Source of the DNA: Rhodamnia argentea
Lineage: Eukaryota; Streptophyta; Magnoliopsida; Myrtales; Myrtaceae
Direction: 5' to 3'
DNA: 64,000 nucleotides
Assembly: GCF_020921035.1 (NCBI RefSeq)
Contig: NC_063160.1
Coordinates: 23,407,095 to 23,471,094, forward strand
Position numbers and translations under genes: made by a program. Positions 857 through 60,107 of this stretch are shown here, piece by piece. Each line of letters starts with the position of its first letter. Within the stretch, counting starts at the first letter, position 1. The notes under the pieces were generated by a model that ran no database searches, was not told the origin of the DNA, and saw only the letters and a program-made list of their open reading frames with translations.

Positions 857-2659
857 ATGGCTGCTAATTCGTCGCTACTGTTGCGCAAAACCCTGAAATC
901 GGTTCTAAATCCTTCCATCTTGGCGTCTCTGACCTCCCATCCCCGGCGGCTCAGCTCCGTCGTCACCGCCCAAACCCAACCCGACGGCCCGTCTTCCTCC
1001 TTCACGTTCTCCGCCGACGGCGACAAGGCCGACGACAGAATATACGTCAAGGCTCCGAGCCCGAAGCCGGCGTCCGCCTCCGACCCTTCTTCGGTGACGA
1101 TGCCCATGGCGTTCATGACGGGGTCCATCGTGGGGAAGCGATTCTACAAGCAGGTGACGGCGAGGGAGGCCGACGATGGGAACGGCTGGACCGTGATGCT
1201 CGATTACAGGACCCTGAAGACGCCTGCCAAGAGGCCTCTCAAGCTCCCAACTCTCGCTCTCGCCAAGGCCATTGCTGCTGAGTGGGAATATCAGGTGCTT
1301 AAAACTGTCATTCGTCTCGGCTCAATTTCGTTCCTTTCTATGGCGTTTCTGGAATTTGAATGACTTGGGGATGTTTAGCTGGTTACGTTTGTGCAAAGTT
1401 GATCTGGTGTGGATTCCTTGTATAGAAGTTCTAGTTCTGAGTTGTGTTTAAAGATCATATGGTTGGAGCTGTGAAATGAAGTGTTGATCATTGTAGCAAA
1501 CAGATGGGATAAGGCCTTTCACGATGCCTCTGATGAAACTCGCTTGCACGGCGCTGGAGAGAGTTCCGCTTACTCGGCCGAAGATCGTTCAACACCTGAT
1601 GAAGAAATTCAGTCAAGACCTGGTCTTCTGCCGGGCGCCGGAGGACAATGTCTTGACGAGTGATGTTCACGGTACGTTATTAGTGAATGTGACTTGTGAG
1701 TTCTGATTTGTCTTTGATAATATTTTCAGATCTTCAATTTTGAGTTGGCAAATTACATATGAAACTTCGTTAGTTTATGTTCCTTTTTTAACCAAAACTA
1801 ATATCGTGTTGGAGCTTGGTGAAATCTCTGCTGATGTATTTCGACCAAAATGAATCATTAGGCCTCGACCAATGTTTCGGGGATAATATGCAGAATGAAT
1901 TTCTTTGAACTCTTGAGCAACAATATATTGCAGTTTTTGTATACTTAATGTATTTTTCATGTTAAATTAGCACCACCCATTTAGCTTTGGCTTTCCATAG
2001 ATATGGTGACTGACTAGTCTGTTGCATAAATTTCGTAGATAGGCAGGTGGAGAAGATTGATCCTTTGCTGGATTGGTTGAAGTCAGAATTTGGATTTAAG
2101 CCTGTTCTGTACTCGAGCTTTTTCGGTGGCAAGCAGGATGAGGGATTGGTGAAGGCCATAGAGAACCTTTTGAAGAACACTGATGATTGTGAACTGGCGG
2201 CGATTGATGCGATGGCTGCAGCAGCACACTCTTTGGTTATTGCTCTTGGAATTTTTCGTGGAAGGTTGCAGATTGAGGAAGCTATTGAGTTAATCAGACT
2301 TGAAGAAGACTTCCAGGTATTTTTATTAAATTTTTTTTAGGTCATTGCCGTGTAACTCTATCTGTCTCACTACCCTAGCACCACCCTTCCTTGCCCACAT
2401 TCATATACTACTCACATGGAGGCGTTACATGTGATGACCGACTTATGCCTCGGATTGAAGCTTGCGCGGCAAACCACGTTGCTAACAATGGGGCTTAATT
2501 TCGTGGTAATCTGTAGATTTGGAGAATAAGTCATCTTATATGTCCTTGTAGGTGGACAGGTGGGGTCTAGTGGAAGGCGGTCATGATGTCGATATTGCCG
2601 ATCTCAAGGTGCAGATATCATCTGCAGCTGTTTTTCTTGCACTCTCAAGAAGGATTTAG
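857..2659 (+). CDS. ATP12: ATP synthase mitochondrial F1 complex assembly factor 2 (ATP12 family)
   Basis: Chaperone that binds free F1 alpha subunit in the mitochondrial matrix so that alpha3beta3 can assemble. Four exons fit in phase: 857-1294, 1497-1671, 2039-2316 and 2552-2659, all GT-AG, giving 332 residues. The first ~60 residues are rich in Ser, Arg, Leu and Pro and look like a mitochondrial presequence. The conserved core follows: KRFYKQV near residue 96, then LDYRTLKTPAKRPL, then DGIRPFTMPLMKL across the exon 1/2 border, then VEKIDPLLDWL and a C-terminal block ending SSAAVFLALSRRI. Length and motif order match plant ATP12. The exon 3 start at 2039 is the only nearby AG that restores HDRQVEKIDP. 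The copy looks intact. Family assignment is firm; exact borders are predictions. Confidence 0.93.
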
Positions 2660-3283: not shown

Positions 3284-3678
3284 TCAAGGCCTCTCTTTAC
3301 AGCACTCGACGCATACAGGTGGCTGCTTCGTGATGTCACAGTCACAGCATGCTGTATCACAGTTATTGTTGCATCCTGTTAAAAAGGCAGAAATTTTGAG
3401 GATCAGAGATCAGTCCGTGCTTCACACACTGTCTCATCTTAACTCACCAATTCTATAGAGTTGGTTCAGTCTGTGGAAATTCCACATAGAAGCAAAAAGA
3501 AAAGCACAGATTGTAATGGACAAGAAGCTGGTGCATTACCTGTTACAGTAACATACTGAAATGTCTCATAGTCCTGCCGGTCGGCCAAAAATTGGAGCCG
3601 AGGACTTGACTGGACAAAATTCGTGCTGAAATAGACAGAAATCAAAAGAACCCCGAAACATGATCTTGTGATATGCAT
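3284..3678 (-). CDS. Small secreted eight-cysteine peptide (unrecognised family)
   Basis: Two exons, 3678-3540 and 3375-3284, separated by a 164-bp GT-AG intron, encode 76 residues. Residues 1 to about 25 (start MHITRSCFGVLLIS) form a hydrophobic signal peptide. An acidic/aromatic linker follows, then a compact Cys domain with spacing C-x3-C-x3-CC-x-C-x8-C-x2-CC, from C48 to C72. Eight cysteines in 25 residues imply a disulfide-locked secreted peptide. The segment TKQPPVC recalls the Bowman-Birk inhibitory loop (T-K-S-x-P-P-x-C), but spacing and overall pattern do not match a canonical Bowman-Birk inhibitor, so protease inhibition is only a suggestion. An upstream in-frame ATG at 3747 is rejected because a TATA box at 3756-3763 would place transcription start downstream of it. 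The function is unknown. Confidence 0.66.
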
Positions 3679-3755
3679 GATTTCAGAGATTGCAATGTAT
3701 TGCCTGATGATGTAAGATAGCAATTTGGAGGGTGAAGTTGCCATCATTCCAAGAG

Positions 3756-3763
3756 TTTATATA
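3756..3763 (-). promoter_or_regulatory. TATA box of the cysteine-rich peptide gene
   Basis: On the minus strand the sequence reads TATATAAA, about 78 bp upstream of the chosen ATG at 3678. With the usual 25-35 bp spacing, transcription would begin near 3725-3730. This supports the 3678 start codon over the in-frame ATGs at 3747 and 3744. Confidence 0.6.
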
Positions 3764-4532
3764 GCACATAAGAGGTGTAGAGCATATTATATTCAAACAT
3801 TGTCTCTTTTATATCCATCTGCAGCATCATCGTAAATCTGTGTGACCAGACATAATTCGGATGACGCTCTTTCATATTATTTTAATCCTGTCTGGAGTTC
3901 AGAAACAGCGTCATTACAAGGATGTGAAACAGGCTTGCTTAATAAGTTTTGGATAGACAATGCCCTTTCATGCGCTTTTTATAAGAATCTGCTGTAATAA
4001 ACTGTGAGTGCTCTTGATTGCATTCCTCCATTCCATCATATACTAGAGATGGTTGAGCAACTTCCCTCCTAACCAAGCATTCCAGAATGAACCTAACAAC
4101 TTTCATGAAAAGGTAACGAGGAGATAAAAGTACTACGTAAATGAGACAGTCTCATTCTTCACATCATATTTGGTGGCTATGACAGTAATGCAGTACCATG
4201 ATCCGAGATTCAAGAAGTCACGACTTATATTCCTAACAGGAAAAAACAAGAATAGTGATGGAACCATTCATATGCTCATACAACACCAAAACTGGTTTAG
4301 TTTTTATAGGGAACGTTTGAATCTAAAAGAATGATCTGTCCAACTCCTGCTTCCGCTTCCGAATCACCGGGGAAAAGCCGGTTACCATGTAAACACTGCT
4401 CGCCAGAACTTGGTCCCAAACAAAGTCTAAAACAAGTACATGAAAGAAAAGGGGCAAGGGTCTAGAGTAAACTGCAGATGCCCGGGAAAATGCACAGATA
4501 AAGCACCAACGTCACTGCCATATCCAGGCCAG
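3764..4532. other. Intergenic DNA between cysteine-rich peptide and CCCH genes
   Basis: Upstream sequence of the cysteine-rich peptide gene plus the presumed 3' UTR of the CCCH gene, whose stop codon is at 4533-4535. No further gene, RNA or repeat was recognised. Confidence 0.45.
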
Positions 4533-7197
4533 TTAGGACCATGCAGGCGGATCTCCAAGAGGAGCTATTCCAAAAGAAGAGGAGCCAGAATCTTCCGGAA
4601 CCGGATGATCGAAAAAGCACGCGCTTCCATATTTACAAAACCCAAACTGGGTATAATTCCTGCAAGTTCTCCTATCCTGTAAATATGACCACATAGATCT
4701 AATCAATCAAGTTTTCACAGTGTGACACAAGAGTGAAACTTAAGTTCGAGGGCAATAATTAGAACAGAATAAAGAACAAGAAAAAAAGTCAATGTTCCAG
4801 GAAAGTAATTTGATTAAAAGATGTAAGATTGTGGTCCACTGGAGAGGAAGAATCATAAGAGATTTTAGCCTAAATAGATAAAATCAATGCATGAAAACTG
4901 AAGACCTTTTAACTTTAATTTGAGAGTTGCACAGTTCTTATGGGCAATGTAGAAACTTACAGATCTCACGGGGAGTGCCTTATCAATTTGAAAATAGGAG
5001 GGTACTGTCGAAACTCGGTGCTTTGGATGGTGAAATTTACAAGCATGTCCATATTTGCAATGACCTGTCTTCATGAAATAAGCACACTCGGGTTGAAAGG
5101 GTCGTTGAGGGTATTCTTCCGGAGGTTGCAGCCCATTTCTGTGCCCTGCCCTTTCTTGTGGATAAGCCAAAGCCTAAAAAACAACAGATTGGCGCAAAAT
5201 GAATTACTCATTTTGCAGATAATTCAATCCTGCTTTCTAAAGTAACAGCACTTCAAAACATTCTTGAGGTAGTAATAGCAATATTATATACTCAGAAATA
5301 TGGAGATTAGGAGTATTTATAAAGTAGCAATTACTGGACTGACAAGAAAGAGAATGCAGAAATGAAACAACGAAGGGCAAAAAATCAACACTTGGCGAAC
5401 AAGTATTAAAAAAACATAAAAGCACAAACTAATCACTTAGATTTGTGAACTCTTCCATGTACAGATAAATGCACCTTTTGAGAACTTAGAGAAGTTCCAG
5501 GGACAGGGGACAGTCCATTCTCCCAGCAAGGCTGGGTCCCAGAAGCTGCGTTCAAAGACCGGGATGCTAAATATTCCTGTAAAATTCCATTATATCTTAG
5601 ATGATCAGGGTTTCCCATAGGACTCTCCTTAGGATACTTCTGTTCCCTTCCAACTGGTGCAAGATTGGCCGAGGTCTCATCAGGACTGAAGTCCCCAACC
5701 GTTGTTGGATCAGGATGGTGAAACCTGCAATCAAGTCCATACCGACACGTGCCATTCCGCATGTAGAAGGGGCACTCTGCTTTTCCCTAAAGTGAAATAT
5801 GAAAATAATATAAGCCACACACATTGCTTCTTATCTGTGCTTAAAATGGAGCTTATAGATCAATTGATCGATGAAGGTAGAAAAAGGCCTAGAATTAACT
5901 AAAATTGAACTTGCGAATTTGTAGCATGAAAGAATATACTCTTTACCAATCTAATTGGCAGGCCAAGGAAATTAAGTTGTGGTTCGCCTGAGATTTCAAT
6001 TCTTTCTTTGGAATGGCTAAATCTGCAAGCTTCTCCATACTTGCACCCTCCAGCAGTCGAGTAATACTACAAAATTAAGCGCGAAAGAACTCAATTTTCA
6101 GGACAACAAGCATGCATGCACGTGTGTGCACAAAAGAAAGAAAAAAACGAGGCGATCAGATGTCATTTTGAGATAAATGTGGGAGGCTGCTAAATTGAAC
6201 AAAGCCAAAAAGCAAGCTATTGCTGTCGATATCAGATAGATGAAGCACATTTCTAATCTAGCCATCATATGCCTAGACATATAAACTGAAAAGGATCTTA
6301 TGAATAAAGCCATTCGTATGAGAAGGACATCTCCAGTCGTGGCTGAATGTCACAACATCATTAGGACATAAACCACATAACTACATATCTAGGGAACATG
6401 CAAACATTGACTAGTGGATATCAAGAAAGTCCAGACCAAAAAGGAGTACTCATTGAGCAACCATTCAGATGACGTTAACGCCTGTGCAATGCTGAGAGGT
6501 TTGCAAGTAAAACCGGTACATTTCCTAGCAACATTTCCTTGAAATCCTTACCTACTATATCATCAATTATCATTCCTCTGCTGGACTGAACTAAAGAAAG
6601 AGCAGCACAAAACCGTTAAAACGAGCGGCACAAATCCTAACCTTGCACTCAATCTGCTTAGTAGGCTGCAAGATCTCTCCTTTTTCTTGCTGCTCCACGA
6701 AACCCTTCAAGAATCACGCCCACAAGTCAACCGGTTCATACATCAACCCACTGTAAATCCCCAAGAAAGCACAACACCCGAACGAAACCAACGAAAAGGC
6801 TAAGATCACATACCGAACGCTGAAAGACCTGGGACTCGCCCATGCCCGTCCTCTTCACAGGGTGACTGAACCTGCAATTCATGCCGAACTTGCACCACCC
6901 GTTCCGGAGATAAAAATGGCAATCCCCCGCGTAAATCCCAAAAGGGTAGTGCGATTTCTCTCCCCGATCGTCCAAATTCCCATCTTTCTCCTCGCTCGCT
7001 TCGTCCCCGGCCCCCTCCAAGGCTACGTTCCGAATCCCCTCCGCGAGCGCAAGTTCCGCGACCGTACCGACGACAGCCGGGGGAGAAGATGAAGAAAAGG
7101 GCGGCGGCTCATTTGGGTCGGGCCGCGCCGGCTGGTGCCGTTGGAGGAGTTCAAGAGAGGAGGGAAAGATTTCGGTTTCGCCCTCCAAACTCGCCAT
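4533..7197 (-). CDS. CCCH zinc finger protein with five fingers (plant C3H43/C3H67-like)
   Basis: Probable RNA- or DNA-binding regulator. Six exons in phase: 7197-6814, 6704-6642, 6066-5947, 5786-5463 (or -5475), 5173-4961 and 4676-4533, about 415 residues. An acidic, Pro/Ser-rich N-terminus of about 85 residues precedes five C-x8-C-x5-C-x3-H fingers: [21 protein letters not shown]-type at the end of exon 1, one split across exons 2/3, one in exon 4 ([13 protein letters not shown]), one in exon 5 ([13 protein letters not shown]) and one in exon 6 ([13 protein letters not shown]). Two fingers are followed by the HH/HP style typical of plant ZFN-type proteins. The finger split across exons 2/3 independently confirms that splice. 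Exon 4 has two in-frame donors 12 bp apart, so two isoforms differing by four residues are possible. All fingers keep their ligands. The exact orthologue is not certain. Confidence 0.88.
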
Positions 7198-51857: not shown

Positions 51858-54846
51858 TTAAAGGCTATGATTGATTGATTCCTCATCGATGCTGGGAACA
51901 ACCTCATCATGGCAGCAGACGAAGTTGGTGAGTTCTTCCATCAGACTCTGGCACTCCGGGCACCCCATGCTCTCCGGGATCTTCCCCACCGTGCTCTGGA
52001 ACTCCAATCGGCAGCACAGGTGCATCGTGTTCTGGATCTTGTCGTGCTGCTCCTTGAACGCCACTGTCGTATCCCTTGGTCTCCACGTTCTCCTTCCACA
52101 GGTCATACTCCAGCAGCGCTGGCAAGACCGCGGTACCGTGTCCATTCACCGTGATGCTTGACCCCTTGCTCAGCACCGCCCACCCCTCGGCCTTGTCGAA
52201 GCTGAGCAGCCTCTTGATCTGCTGCATCACGGGGTCATCCTCGTCCGCCTTCCCGAGCTGGATCTTTGAGAAGAGCATCGACTCAAGCCGGGTCCAGAAG
52301 AACCACACCATAGTCAGGTCCTGCCAGGCGTAGCTCAGCTTCTCAGCGTCGATGGCTGCAATCATGCGCCGCAACTGCTCCAGCTTGCTGCTCTTGCCCA
52401 CATAGACCATCTCCAGGGGGATCCTGGCGTGCCGCCACGGTGAACTTGCGGATCACTCGATGTCATTGCCACCGTACAGGAATATGTACTTGCCTTCTCT
52501 AATCTGATGAGGCACAAAATTGAAGATCTCAATGTCACGAACCTTTGAATTAACATGACAAAAATGCTAACTTGACATGATCATGAGTTAACCCAATTCA
52601 GAATTGCTTCATCAATGCCATCGACAAGAAGCTCAAGCCTCCATGTCTCTTCCTTCCACAGAGCCTCCTCTTCCAGGGTAGTGAAAGGAAAGGCTATGCT
52701 TCCCAAATCCACATCATGTGAATGGCATTGGGGCACAGAACTTTGCCTTGTGGGTCAAGCACCACCAGGATGGGCTTGTTCCTAAAGTGCAACATCTCCT
52801 TGACGAACTGGATCACCACCTTGCTGATCAGGCGTGGGTGGAGCACGGTGTACCACGGCATCGCGAACTGCCAGTCCTCGAACTGCTTCTGCTTTCGCTT
52901 GGTTCACTTGACGGAGTGGTCCACCACAGGGATCCACACCACCTCATGCATTGTCTCGTGCAGCTTGGACTCGCTGTGGATCTGCTCCAGGATGGACAGC
53001 TCGTGTTGTGAGATGTCGAGCCCTGAGATCAGCAGCCGCACGTTCTTCCTCCTCAGGACTTCGATGTTGACCTGTATTGTTATGAGACCAAATCCGAAAG
53101 ACTAAACTGCTAGATGAACGGAGACGAAAGTGATCTAAGACCGTCAAGCAGTGTGCGATGTTTGAACACATATGTCGTGAGATAGAACAGAAAATCGCAG
53201 TCCAATCGTTTTGCATTGAAGGGTTAATAGTAGCAATATCACGAGACTTGCTATGGAGATCGAACCCTCTTCTTTGTAGTCCCATCCACAAGTGGCAGAA
53301 TATCATCCTCGGGATAAATCAGAGACTTCAGGATCTTCACATTGACAATGTGGATGGCTTCCGGGGGATTCAGGAGAGCCTGATAGGCTTCGTCATGCCG
53401 CTTTTTTTCCGCTGCATCACCCTGAACTTGGTTAAGCCTTCTTCAAAAAGGTTGCTTTCTCTTTATTTACTACGTACAAAAATAGTGGGGTGTCTATATT
53501 GAACGCTGCCTTACCGCTTACTAATCGGTGACACGCGATAATTTGTTCTCACAAATATTCATTTACGGTCTTCAGTTCGTGAGCTGAGGTTGGCAGCTCT
53601 CGTGCCTCGGTTGTGGATGTTATGTACCTGCAAATTCTCGCTTCCAAGTTATGATTTGTTGTGGGAGGCGTCTATAGAGAAATTTGTTCACAGTTACATG
53701 ATTAAGTCTGATGTTAACCCATTAGGTATAGGATGATTTGTGTCCAATGCCTCATAAAACTACAGTTGAGCGCGAGGGGAGAATCGAAATAACTGGAGAG
53801 CGCGTACTTGTGGCTGAAGCTAGTGAGGTTGGCGATCTGGCTAGAGCAGGACACGGCGCTTCTTATGGTCCAGTGGACGCCATTTGGGATGTGGGCAATG
53901 GCGGCTGACAACGCGGGCACCACCGACGAAAGCTCCTTGAGGTCCACCACGAACCTGGTGGCTTCAAACATGGCCTGGTTGAGACTTTTGAGCACGTCGA
54001 GCCTGGACTTGAGAGCACCCGAGTGCTCCATGATAAAGGGCTGCTGCTTCAGGATAGCCATTGACTTGGCGAGCTGGTTGGAAGAGTAGACCTGGTTCAA
54101 GAGCCAGAACTTGCCGTAGTTGAAGGCGAAGGCCGCGAGGGTCAGCACCGGCTTGGCGTACCACGAGAAGGGGGCGAGCATGTTGAATATGGAGAGCGTT
54201 GTCTCGTGCGCCTCGCCCCCGGTCAGCGCCTTCTCGGATAGCTGAGGATCGGTTGCCAGGTCACAAAAGTCAGTACAGAACTTGATTTTGTTGCAAAGAA
54301 TTGATTGCTCTTCGTTTAATCTCGTGGAGGAATTTGAAATCGATGAAGCGCAAAATGAAACTTTTCATGAACCACCTTGCCAGAAATCCAACTGATGGTA
54401 TAGGACAATGCGTCGAGCATGGTGGTGATGCTGGCCCAGTAAGTCTCGTTCGCCATGTATTCCGTGATCTCAAGAGAAAAACAGATAGTTGAGATTGATA
54501 ATTGTCCGGATATTGCTCATCCTTTATCAGAGAAATGGTGATTGATATTAAACTGAACAAATCTCTCCTAGCCAAATTACTGTAAAATGTACTCAAAGCA
54601 TTTGATTCCAGGTCAAGACGGACAAAAAGAAAAAGGTCATTCCTACTCTATTACCCCGGGGGTGATGTCGGTGTCAACATCTAAGGCTGCGCCGTCGAGG
54701 ATATCCCCAACTAGATCGAGGAGCAGCTCCACTTCAAACTCGCAGTCGTCGGGGGCGCGAGTCTCCTCAACCTGCTTCATCATCAGGTCCTTGTCGAACA
54801 TCGTCATTATGCTCCAAACCCTGTCCTTGTCGGTCGTCGTGGCCAT
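51858..54846 (-). pseudogene. Sieve element occlusion (SEO) pseudogene, upstream-lying tandem copy
   Basis: Exon-by-exon homologue of the gene at 57136-60107. Exons: 54846-54655, 54468-54376, 54280-53808, 53627 to ~53518, ~53428-53280, 53071 to ~52593 and ~52502-51858. SEO features persist: LATDPQLSEKALTGGEAHET, FNYGKFWLLNQVYSSNQLAK, HIPNGVHWTIRSAV, MVYVGKSSKLEQL and CPECQSLMEELTNFVCCHDE. Breaks in the host gene: a TGA in exon 4 where the partner has CAG, a TGA in exon 6 (around 52905-52915, partner reads CTGTGG), a 1-bp loss near 52700, a 1-bp loss near 52450 (GAGTGATCC for GAGTGGATCC) and another frame change near 52075. The promoter has also lost its TATA box. Exon borders are by analogy. 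Confidence 0.88.
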
Positions 54847-57135: not shown

Positions 57136-60107
57136 TCAATCATAGACGATGGGAGCAACCTCATCGTGGCAGCAGACGAAGCTGGTGAGCTTCTCCATGA
57201 GTCTCTGGCACTCTGGGCACCGCATGCTCTCCGGGATCCTTCCCATCGCGCTCTGGAACTCGAAGCGGCAGCACGGGTGCGTCACGTCGTGGATCTTGTC
57301 ATGGTGGTCCTTGAATGCCAGTTCGTACCCCTTGGTCGGCACGTGCTCCTTCCACAGGTCGTACTCCAGCAGCGCCGGCAGGACTGTGGTCCCGTGCCCG
57401 TTCACCGAGATGGTCGACCCCTTGCTCAGCACTGCCCAGCCCCCGACCTTGTCGAAGCTGAGCAGCCTCTTGATCTGCTGCATCACAGGGTCGTACTCGT
57501 CCGCCTTCCCGAGCTGGATCTTCGAGAAGAGCATCGACTCGAGCCGGGTCCAGAAGAACCACACCATAGTCAGGTCCTGCCAGGCGTAGCTCATCTTCTC
57601 ATTGTTTATGGCAACAACTGCGCGCCGCACCTGCTCTCGCTTGCTGCTCTTGCCCACATAGGCCATCTCCAGGGGGATCCTCGCCGCCTGTGCGACCTGG
57701 TGTGCCGCCGTGGTGAACTTGCGGATCCACTCAATGTCATCGCCACCATACAGGAATATGTACTTGCCGTCTCTAATCTGATGATGAGGGACAAAATTGA
57801 AGATCTCAATGTCACAAACCTTTGGATTAATCTGATAAAAATGCTAACTTGAAATGATCTTGAGTTACCCAATTCAAAATTGTTGGATCAATGCCATTGA
57901 CAAGAAGCTCAAGCCTCCATGTCTCTTCCTTCCACAGAGCCTCCTCTCTCATTGTAGTGAAAGGGAAGGCATTGCCTCCCCAGATCCACATCATGTGAAT
58001 GGCATTGGGGCACACAACCTTGCCTTGTGGGTCAAGCACCACCAGGATGGGCTTGTTCCTGAAGTGCCACCTCTCCTTGATGAACCGGATCACCGCCCTG
58101 TCGATCAGGTTTGGGTGGTACACGGTGTACCACGGCATCGAGGACTGCAGGGCCTCGAACTGCTTCTGCATTGGGTCGGTCCACAGGACCGAGCGGTCCA
58201 CCATGGGGATCCACACCACCTCGTACTGGTGGATATCATGCCGCGTCGCGTGCAACTTGGACTCGCTGTGGATCTGCTCCAGGATGGACAGCTCCTCCTG
58301 TGAGATGTCCAGCCCCGAGATCAGCAGCAACACGTTCCTCCTCCTCAGGACTTCAAGGTTGACCTGAATGTCGCAACATAGAACGGAAAATCGCGGCCAA
58401 ATCATTCACAATTGGAATCGTTCGTGGGTGTGTTGCATAATAGTGAGACTGGATATAGAGGTCGAACCCTTTTCTTAGTATTCCCGTCAACAAGTGGGAG
58501 AATATCATCCTTGGGATAAATCAGAGCCTTCAGGATCTTCATATTGTCAATGTGGAGGGTTTCCATGAGACTCAGGAGAGTCTGATAGGCTTCGAGATGC
58601 CGCTTTTCCTCTGCGTCACCGGTAACTCGGTTAAGCCTTCTTCGAAAAGGTTTCCTTCTCTTCAAATTACCAGATAAGAAATAAATAGAGGGTCTATATA
58701 GATCAGTGGCTGATTTATTACCAATGTGTTGGTTACATATGGCGATTTGCTTCTGCAAATGTTCATATATGCTCGTCAGTTTGTGAGCCAAGGTTGATAG
58801 CTCCCATGCCTCGGTTGTGGTTGTTATGTACCTGCAAATTCTCACTTCCATGTTATGATTTCACGTGGGACGCATCTACACAAGTAATCATTCAGACATA
58901 TACTTTCATTTAACAATCAGCTATACAATGATTTGTATCTATGCCTTATAATCGAGTGCAAGTAGAGAAGTCAAAATAGTTCGAGAGCGCGTACTCAAGG
59001 CCATAGCTAGTGAGGTTAGTGATCTGGCCAGCACAAGCCACAGCGCTCCTTATGGTCCAGTAAACGGCAGTTGGGATGTGTGCCATGGCGGTGGACAATG
59101 CGGGGATCTCGCTGGAGATGTAAGCTGAGGGAAGCTCCCTAAACTCCACCACGCACCTGGTGACCTTAAGCATGGCCTGGATGAGGTTGTTGAGTGCTTC
59201 GAACCGGGACTTGAGCATGCCCGAGTGCTCCATGATCATGGGCAACTGCCTCAGGATCGCCATCGACTTGGCGAGCTGGTTGGAGGTGTAGATCTGGGCC
59301 AAGAGCCAGAACTCGCCGTAGTTGAAGGCGAAGGCTGCCAGGGTCAGCACCAGCTTGGCGTCCCACGAGAAGGGGCCGAGCAAGTTGAATATGGCGAGCG
59401 TGGTCGCATGCGCCTCACCCCCGGTCAGCGCCTTCACGGACAGCTGAGGATCGGTGGCCAAGCTGGCAAATGTCAGCGGAAAGAATTGTTTCTTCTAACG
59501 AAGAATCGATTGCTCTTCATTTAATCTCGGGGCAAAATGCGAAACAGATGAAGGGCGACATGAAATTCTTTCATAAATCACCTCGCAGGAGATCCTCTCG
59601 ATGATATAGGACAGCGCGTCGAGCATGGCATTGAAGCTGGCCTGGTAAGTCTTGTCATCCATGTTTTCCGTGAACAATACTGATCCCTATACGCAGCAAG
59701 AGCCATGCATGCACACTTTAGAATTAGAAACGAGAGATCATAATACTCATAAGAGATACAGAAAAAGACCATCAAACTAGACAAATCTCTCCTAGCTAAG
59801 TAAAAGCATTATCTGCAAGCATTTGATCCGGTTCACCGCAAGAAGGCAGACAAGAAAAAGATCATTCCTACTCCATTACCCCGGTGGCGACAGTGTCAAC
59901 ACTCAAGGTAGCGCGGTTGAGGATGTCCTCGACGAGATGGAGGAGTGGCTTCACGTCAACCTCCCGGCCGTCGGGGGTGTGAGTGTCCATGACCTGCTTC
60001 ATCATCACGCTGTCGTCAGACATGGTGATCATGCTCCGATCCCCACCCTTGATCAACCTCTGCATGGCGGGCGGCATCATCTTGCTGGTTGTCGTCATCA
60101 TGGCCAT
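57136..60107 (-). CDS. Sieve element occlusion protein (SEO, P-protein)
   Basis: Structural phloem protein that forms the filaments or plugs of sieve elements. Seven exons in phase: 60107-59880, 59686-59582, 59494-58995, 58831-58722, 58610-58468, 58363-57869 and 57777-57136, 740 residues. SEO_N region: MMKQVMDTHTPDGREVDVKP, GGEAHATTLAIFNLLGPFSW, AFNYGEFWLLAQIYTSNQLA, AHIPTAVYWTIRSAV and TTTTEAWELSTLAHKL. Middle: NVLLLISGLDISQEELSIL then YEVVWIPMVD. SEO_C: KPILVVLDPQGKVVCPNAIH, IRDGKYIFLYGGDDIEWIRK and the Cys motif CPECQRLMEKLTSFVCC. The exon 3/4 join yields GLEYITTTTEAW and the 4/5 join yields QHIEEKRHLEAYQ, which supports those sites. The exon 3 start is the least certain. The promoter keeps a TATA box. 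Likely phloem-specific; the homologous gene next door is broken. Confidence 0.92.

Follow-up and report, generated by a model that had tools for sequence, protein, structure and literature searches.

On the minus strand of a 64-kb stretch of Rhodamnia argentea DNA (the window, by which we mean the whole stretch that was analysed), between a gene for an ATP12 chaperone and a gene for a CCCH zinc-finger protein, lies a short split reading frame that ends in eight cysteines within 25 residues. Does this locus encode a secreted cysteine-rich peptide, or is it an open frame that arose by chance? Judged from its sequence, it is a promising candidate for a genuine, if unremarkable, orphan gene of the former kind, with a chance frame as the main rival.

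Organization of the candidate gene

The two-exon model proposed by an earlier, sequence-only reading of this DNA was reproduced in all its parts, including the coordinates, the lengths of exons and intron, the GT-AG borders, the phase and the 76-residue product. The candidate gene and its immediate surroundings comprise the following features.

857..1363, plus strand: Pfam ATP12 domain within the flanking chaperone gene
3284..3375, minus strand: exon 2 (92 nt), with the eight-cysteine domain CNNNCDTACCDCDITKQPPVCVECCKERP followed by a TGA ending at 3284, from translation
3376..3539, minus strand: intron of 164 bp, GTAATG...TTTTTAACAG, phase 1, from sequence
3540..3678, minus strand: exon 1 (139 nt), with ATG 3678, a signal-peptide-like hydrophobic stretch and an acidic/neutral spacer, from translation
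3679..3747, minus strand: N-terminal extension, with in-frame ATGs at 3747 and 3744 giving a 99- or 98-residue form
3756..3763, minus strand: candidate TATA box TATATAAA, which suits ATG 3678 (consensus only)
3807..3813, minus strand: second candidate TATA box TATAAAA, which would favour the longer N-terminus (consensus only)
4865 to 7197, minus strand: range containing three tested stretches of the flanking CCCH zinc-finger gene

Translation of the spliced frame gives a hydrophobic N-terminus, a spacer and then CNNNCDTACCDCDITKQPPVCVECCKERP, 76 residues in all. Graded by sequence alone, the splice signals are fair: the donor agrees with six of the eight bases of the consensus AGGTAAGT, and the last 20 bases upstream of the acceptor AG are 65% pyrimidine. 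The string TAACAGG is found at both ends of the intron (3535-3545 and 3373-3381, minus strand), so that the residues T-G-C are the same whether the junction is read spliced or unspliced.

The choice of start codon bears on whether the product would be secreted. Over residues 1-30, the best 11-residue hydropathy mean reaches 2.37 in the 76-residue form but only 1.11 in the longer form; therefore, the short form is favoured, provided that the product is secreted. The signal peptide was assessed here by hydropathy alone, with the cleavage site between VQS and SP picked by eye. The earlier reading had described a TATA box well placed for ATG 3678. Indeed, TATATAAA at 3763 fits this ATG, whereas TATAAAA at 3813 points to other ATGs: the first ATGs of a transcript from the latter box would be those at 3800, 3785 and 3769, which are out of frame and whose inclusion varies with the exact transcript start, and the in-frame pair at 3747 and 3744. 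Because of these two TATA-like boxes, the start codon is ambiguous.

Copy number and surroundings

The 801 bases around the gene have one DNA match in their own genome, so the gene is not a repeat. Searches of the same genome for paralogues with the 76-residue protein and the 31-residue domain (E up to 10) returned the gene's own locus and no other; in these searches, as in that with DNA, only the best candidates are scored. Stretches with the cysteine pattern were also retrieved from two contig collections in which plant genes are hardly expected, 39 of them from genome_contigs and one from viral_contigs, and none was confirmed as a relative. Two short direct repeat pairs and one inverted pair near the gene were taken as chance.

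Elsewhere in the window, two similar genes stand side by side on the minus strand (51907-54181 and 57136-59461). The gene at 57136-59461 encodes sieve element occlusion C-terminal domains, and, as judged by eye, the C-terminal end of the gene at 51907-54181 appears to be out of frame relative to it.

Chance expectation for the cysteine cluster

The cysteine spacing, C-x3-C-x3-CC-x-C-x8-C-x2-CC, is exactly that given in the sequence-only reading. To estimate the frequency of comparably dense clusters, the window was pooled with 200 kb from its own genome as training data for an order-2 Markov model. Among 1800 Mb of simulated sequence, there were 169 clusters of at least eight cysteines in 25 stop-free codons, which corresponds to 0.006 per 64 kb and to about 32 per genome of 346.66 Mb. 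Real DNA totalling 264 kb (the window plus 20 stretches of 10 kb from its own genome) contained one such cluster, that of the candidate gene itself, versus 0.025 expected from the simulated rate, along with two clusters of seven cysteines. A first-order model of the window gave no cluster with eight cysteines and three with seven among 30 simulated windows, and no further cluster of at least seven cysteines was found in the real 64-kb window.

We also counted how often a signal-like exon precedes an acceptor. The count covered 3795 acceptors whose pyrimidine content equals or exceeds that of the observed acceptor, and the donor had to match or surpass the observed one and to give the same phase. 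Of these acceptors, nine have an in-phase signal-like first exon within 300 bp and 53 have one within 1500 bp. Exon 1 of the candidate itself accounts for two of the nine, and three exons supply the remaining seven, leaving 7/3793. Assuming independence, the joint rate of cluster and exon is 0.006 x 7/3793, or about 1e-5 per window, with thresholds that were fixed post hoc at the observed values and in a genome that amounts to thousands of windows. The combination of a cysteine cluster with a signal-like exon is rare in one window and possible genome-wide, and it constitutes support, not proof.

Codon usage, trained on 1038 codons, does not decide between a gene and a chance frame. The true frame scores -6.4 bits (-0.5 without cysteines) and beats four of the five alternative frames, and one other forward frame scores -6.3 (0.6).

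According to the main rival explanation, a cysteine-rich stretch of intergenic DNA follows a hydrophobic open frame by coincidence, the splice signals between the two are usable, and no peptide is made. This would agree with the genome-wide expectation given above, with a true frame that codon usage does not single out, with a single copy whose relatives were found neither in its own genome nor in the two contig collections, and with the fact that scanning many windows would turn up such cases; it agrees less well with the low joint rate, its post hoc thresholds notwithstanding, with the fair splice signals and with the presence of TATA boxes. We consider a chance frame a serious possibility, though not the favoured one, and lean slightly towards a real, unannotated gene.

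Comparison with known peptide families

At E up to 10, neither the 98-residue form nor the 29-residue domain matched any Pfam family, and no family was matched in NCBIfam. Among PDB sequences, the same threshold gave one weak match, an iron-sulfur CDGSH protein with an E value of 0.23, which was dismissed as a probable chance hit. A literature search for the string CDITKQPPVC gave no result. The earlier description of an unrecognised two-exon secreted cysteine-rich peptide thus appears consistent with the gene model, the hydropathy and these null searches.

Genes for plant cysteine-rich peptides usually carry the signal in exon 1 and the mature peptide in exon 2, and annotation often misses them, according to one account (PMC3924332). 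The candidate has in common with the genes described there a putative signal exon, a cysteine exon and a short intron, and its predicted two-exon layout with the cysteine domain in exon 2 is that of the broad plant secreted cysteine-rich class; however, no named class was found with its cysteine spacing.

The potato type II inhibitors (PF02428) resemble the candidate in an early C-x3-C and a later C-x2-CC or C-x-CC, but the candidate has no Pfam match. The PF02428 profile detects six places in the same genome (best E 6.3e-12), demonstrating that a profile search can detect inhibitor families in this genome:

C2:33439318-33446291 (L030-L032, L034): five places in some 7 kb, including a partial one, from the profile search
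C7:26011491-26011625 (L033): one place, from the profile search

When the candidate was aligned with four potato type II copies (four of five copies count, L033 being left out), 30-86% of free shuffles reached its score.

Comparison with Bowman-Birk inhibitors

The sequence TKQPPVC had been read as a hint of a Bowman-Birk reactive loop. By eye, the candidate core CCD-C..TK..PP.C..C resembles CCDQCACTKSNPPQCRC of the soybean inhibitor (1bbi); both are cysteine-rich and secreted, the latter by prediction in the candidate, whose single-sequence model also has a hairpin around the loop. Such a likeness would be explained if the candidate were a strongly shortened, diverged Bowman-Birk head, with cysteines 1, 2, 4, 5, 6 and 7 equivalent to the six cysteines of the second head and TKQPP to the reactive loop. 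Once cysteines 3 and 8 are excluded, its spacing is C-x3-C-x4-C-x-C-x8-C-x2-C, to be compared with C-x3-C-x2-C-x-C-x7-C-x-C in the second head of 1bbi. The motif TK-x(1,2)-PP-x-C, chosen post hoc, was present in 212 of 200000 cysteine-keeping shuffles (0.1%).

Within the loop itself, the two diverge. The canonical Bowman-Birk loop is described as the nine-residue CT-P1-SxPPxC in PMC7760496, where amphibian loops of 11 residues indicate that this length can vary, whereas the candidate loop, C-DITKQPPV-C, has ten residues, lacks the P1' serine and reads K-x-PP instead of K-S-x-PP, with one residue fewer between the lysine and the two prolines. The candidate has eight cysteines versus 14, and thus falls short of the ten per working domain below which Bowman-Birk domains are predicted to be non-functional, as stated in PMC7995804. 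The Bowman-Birk profile PF00228 (MEROPS I12) did not match the candidate at E up to 10, and no Bowman-Birk chain was among the PDB matches at the same threshold, although the PDB has at least 21 Bowman-Birk sequences. In alignments with 1bbi, 5j4s and 1tab (3000 shuffles of each kind), free shuffles equalled the candidate's score in 26, 31 and 19% of cases, and cysteine-keeping shuffles in 16, 21 and 11%, respectively. By the sequence features tested here, the candidate is not a Bowman-Birk member; the earlier hint, for which the rarity of the motif in shuffles still speaks, is weak overall, and we regard a diverged head as quite improbable.

The PF00228 profile gave five weak places in the candidate's own genome (best 20.5 bits against a cut-off of 20.4, E 0.52), and the same search was positive in 5 of 14 control genomes. 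Two of the five places were inspected; one is a frame of 30 residues, the other is chance-like, and neither is a clear inhibitor gene. The former, an open stretch from C11:19777399 onward (L004:1501-1593), carries the canonical loop motif CTRSNPP at the E value given above and is either a coincidence or an exon remnant. Among literature titles retrieved for Bowman-Birk and Eucalyptus, none concerns such an inhibitor, and the corresponding search for Myrtaceae returned a leaf-extract study.

Finally, it is very improbable that the dense CC-x-C and C-x2-CC groups of a secreted peptide bind metal instead of forming disulfides, since a secretory signal would lead to an oxidising compartment and Pfam and NCBIfam are without a match, even though the sole PDB sequence match, probably by chance, is an iron-sulfur protein.

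Predicted structure and proposed mechanism

For the 31-residue domain, AlphaFold2 in single-sequence mode predicted a hairpin whose two strands, residues 10-15 and 22-27, flank a tip formed by ITKQPP (mean pLDDT 81.5, pTM 0.38), and the mean pLDDT of the five models was 81.5, 81.4, 71.9, 66.2 and 61.5. No PDB fold was matched by Foldseek, which says little for a model of 31 residues. We give the hairpin model little weight.

In the explanation that we prefer, a secreted cysteine-rich peptide that works as a stapled hairpin is encoded by a small gene that is single-copy and restricted to its lineage; taken as a whole, with this mechanism included, it is held tentatively, as somewhat short of an even chance. 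Exon 1 would provide a signal peptide that is cut after VQS, releasing about 53 residues, or fewer if the product starts near the first cysteine. Four disulfides would form in the secretory pathway and staple a beta hairpin, the tip of which, DITKQPPV, would face outwards. In the apoplast, this tip loop would most likely bind an extracellular protein, our first guess being a protease, for which the peptide would act as an inhibitor or a decoy substrate, and our second a receptor. A membrane-lytic role is disfavoured by the net charge, which is -2 for the cysteine domain and -3 for the 53-residue form and hence acidic, unlike that of lytic peptides.

These steps differ in how far we trust them. 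Given a real gene, a secreted hairpin is likely. Given such a hairpin, action on a protease is conceivable but doubtful, and the candidate is perhaps inhibitor-like. It is unlikely that the locus represents a new, recently arisen family of minimal secreted peptides that has no kinship with Bowman-Birk inhibitors and came by convergence to an inhibitor-like loop with four disulfides in 25 residues.

If the locus is not a real gene, it provides a measure of how often such frames arise, with some 32 chance clusters of this density per genome. If the gene is real, it would be one more lineage-restricted entry among the under-annotated plant cysteine-rich peptides. Should its product also prove to be a protease inhibitor, it would offer a very small disulfide-dense scaffold on which a Bowman-Birk-like loop was arrived at independently.
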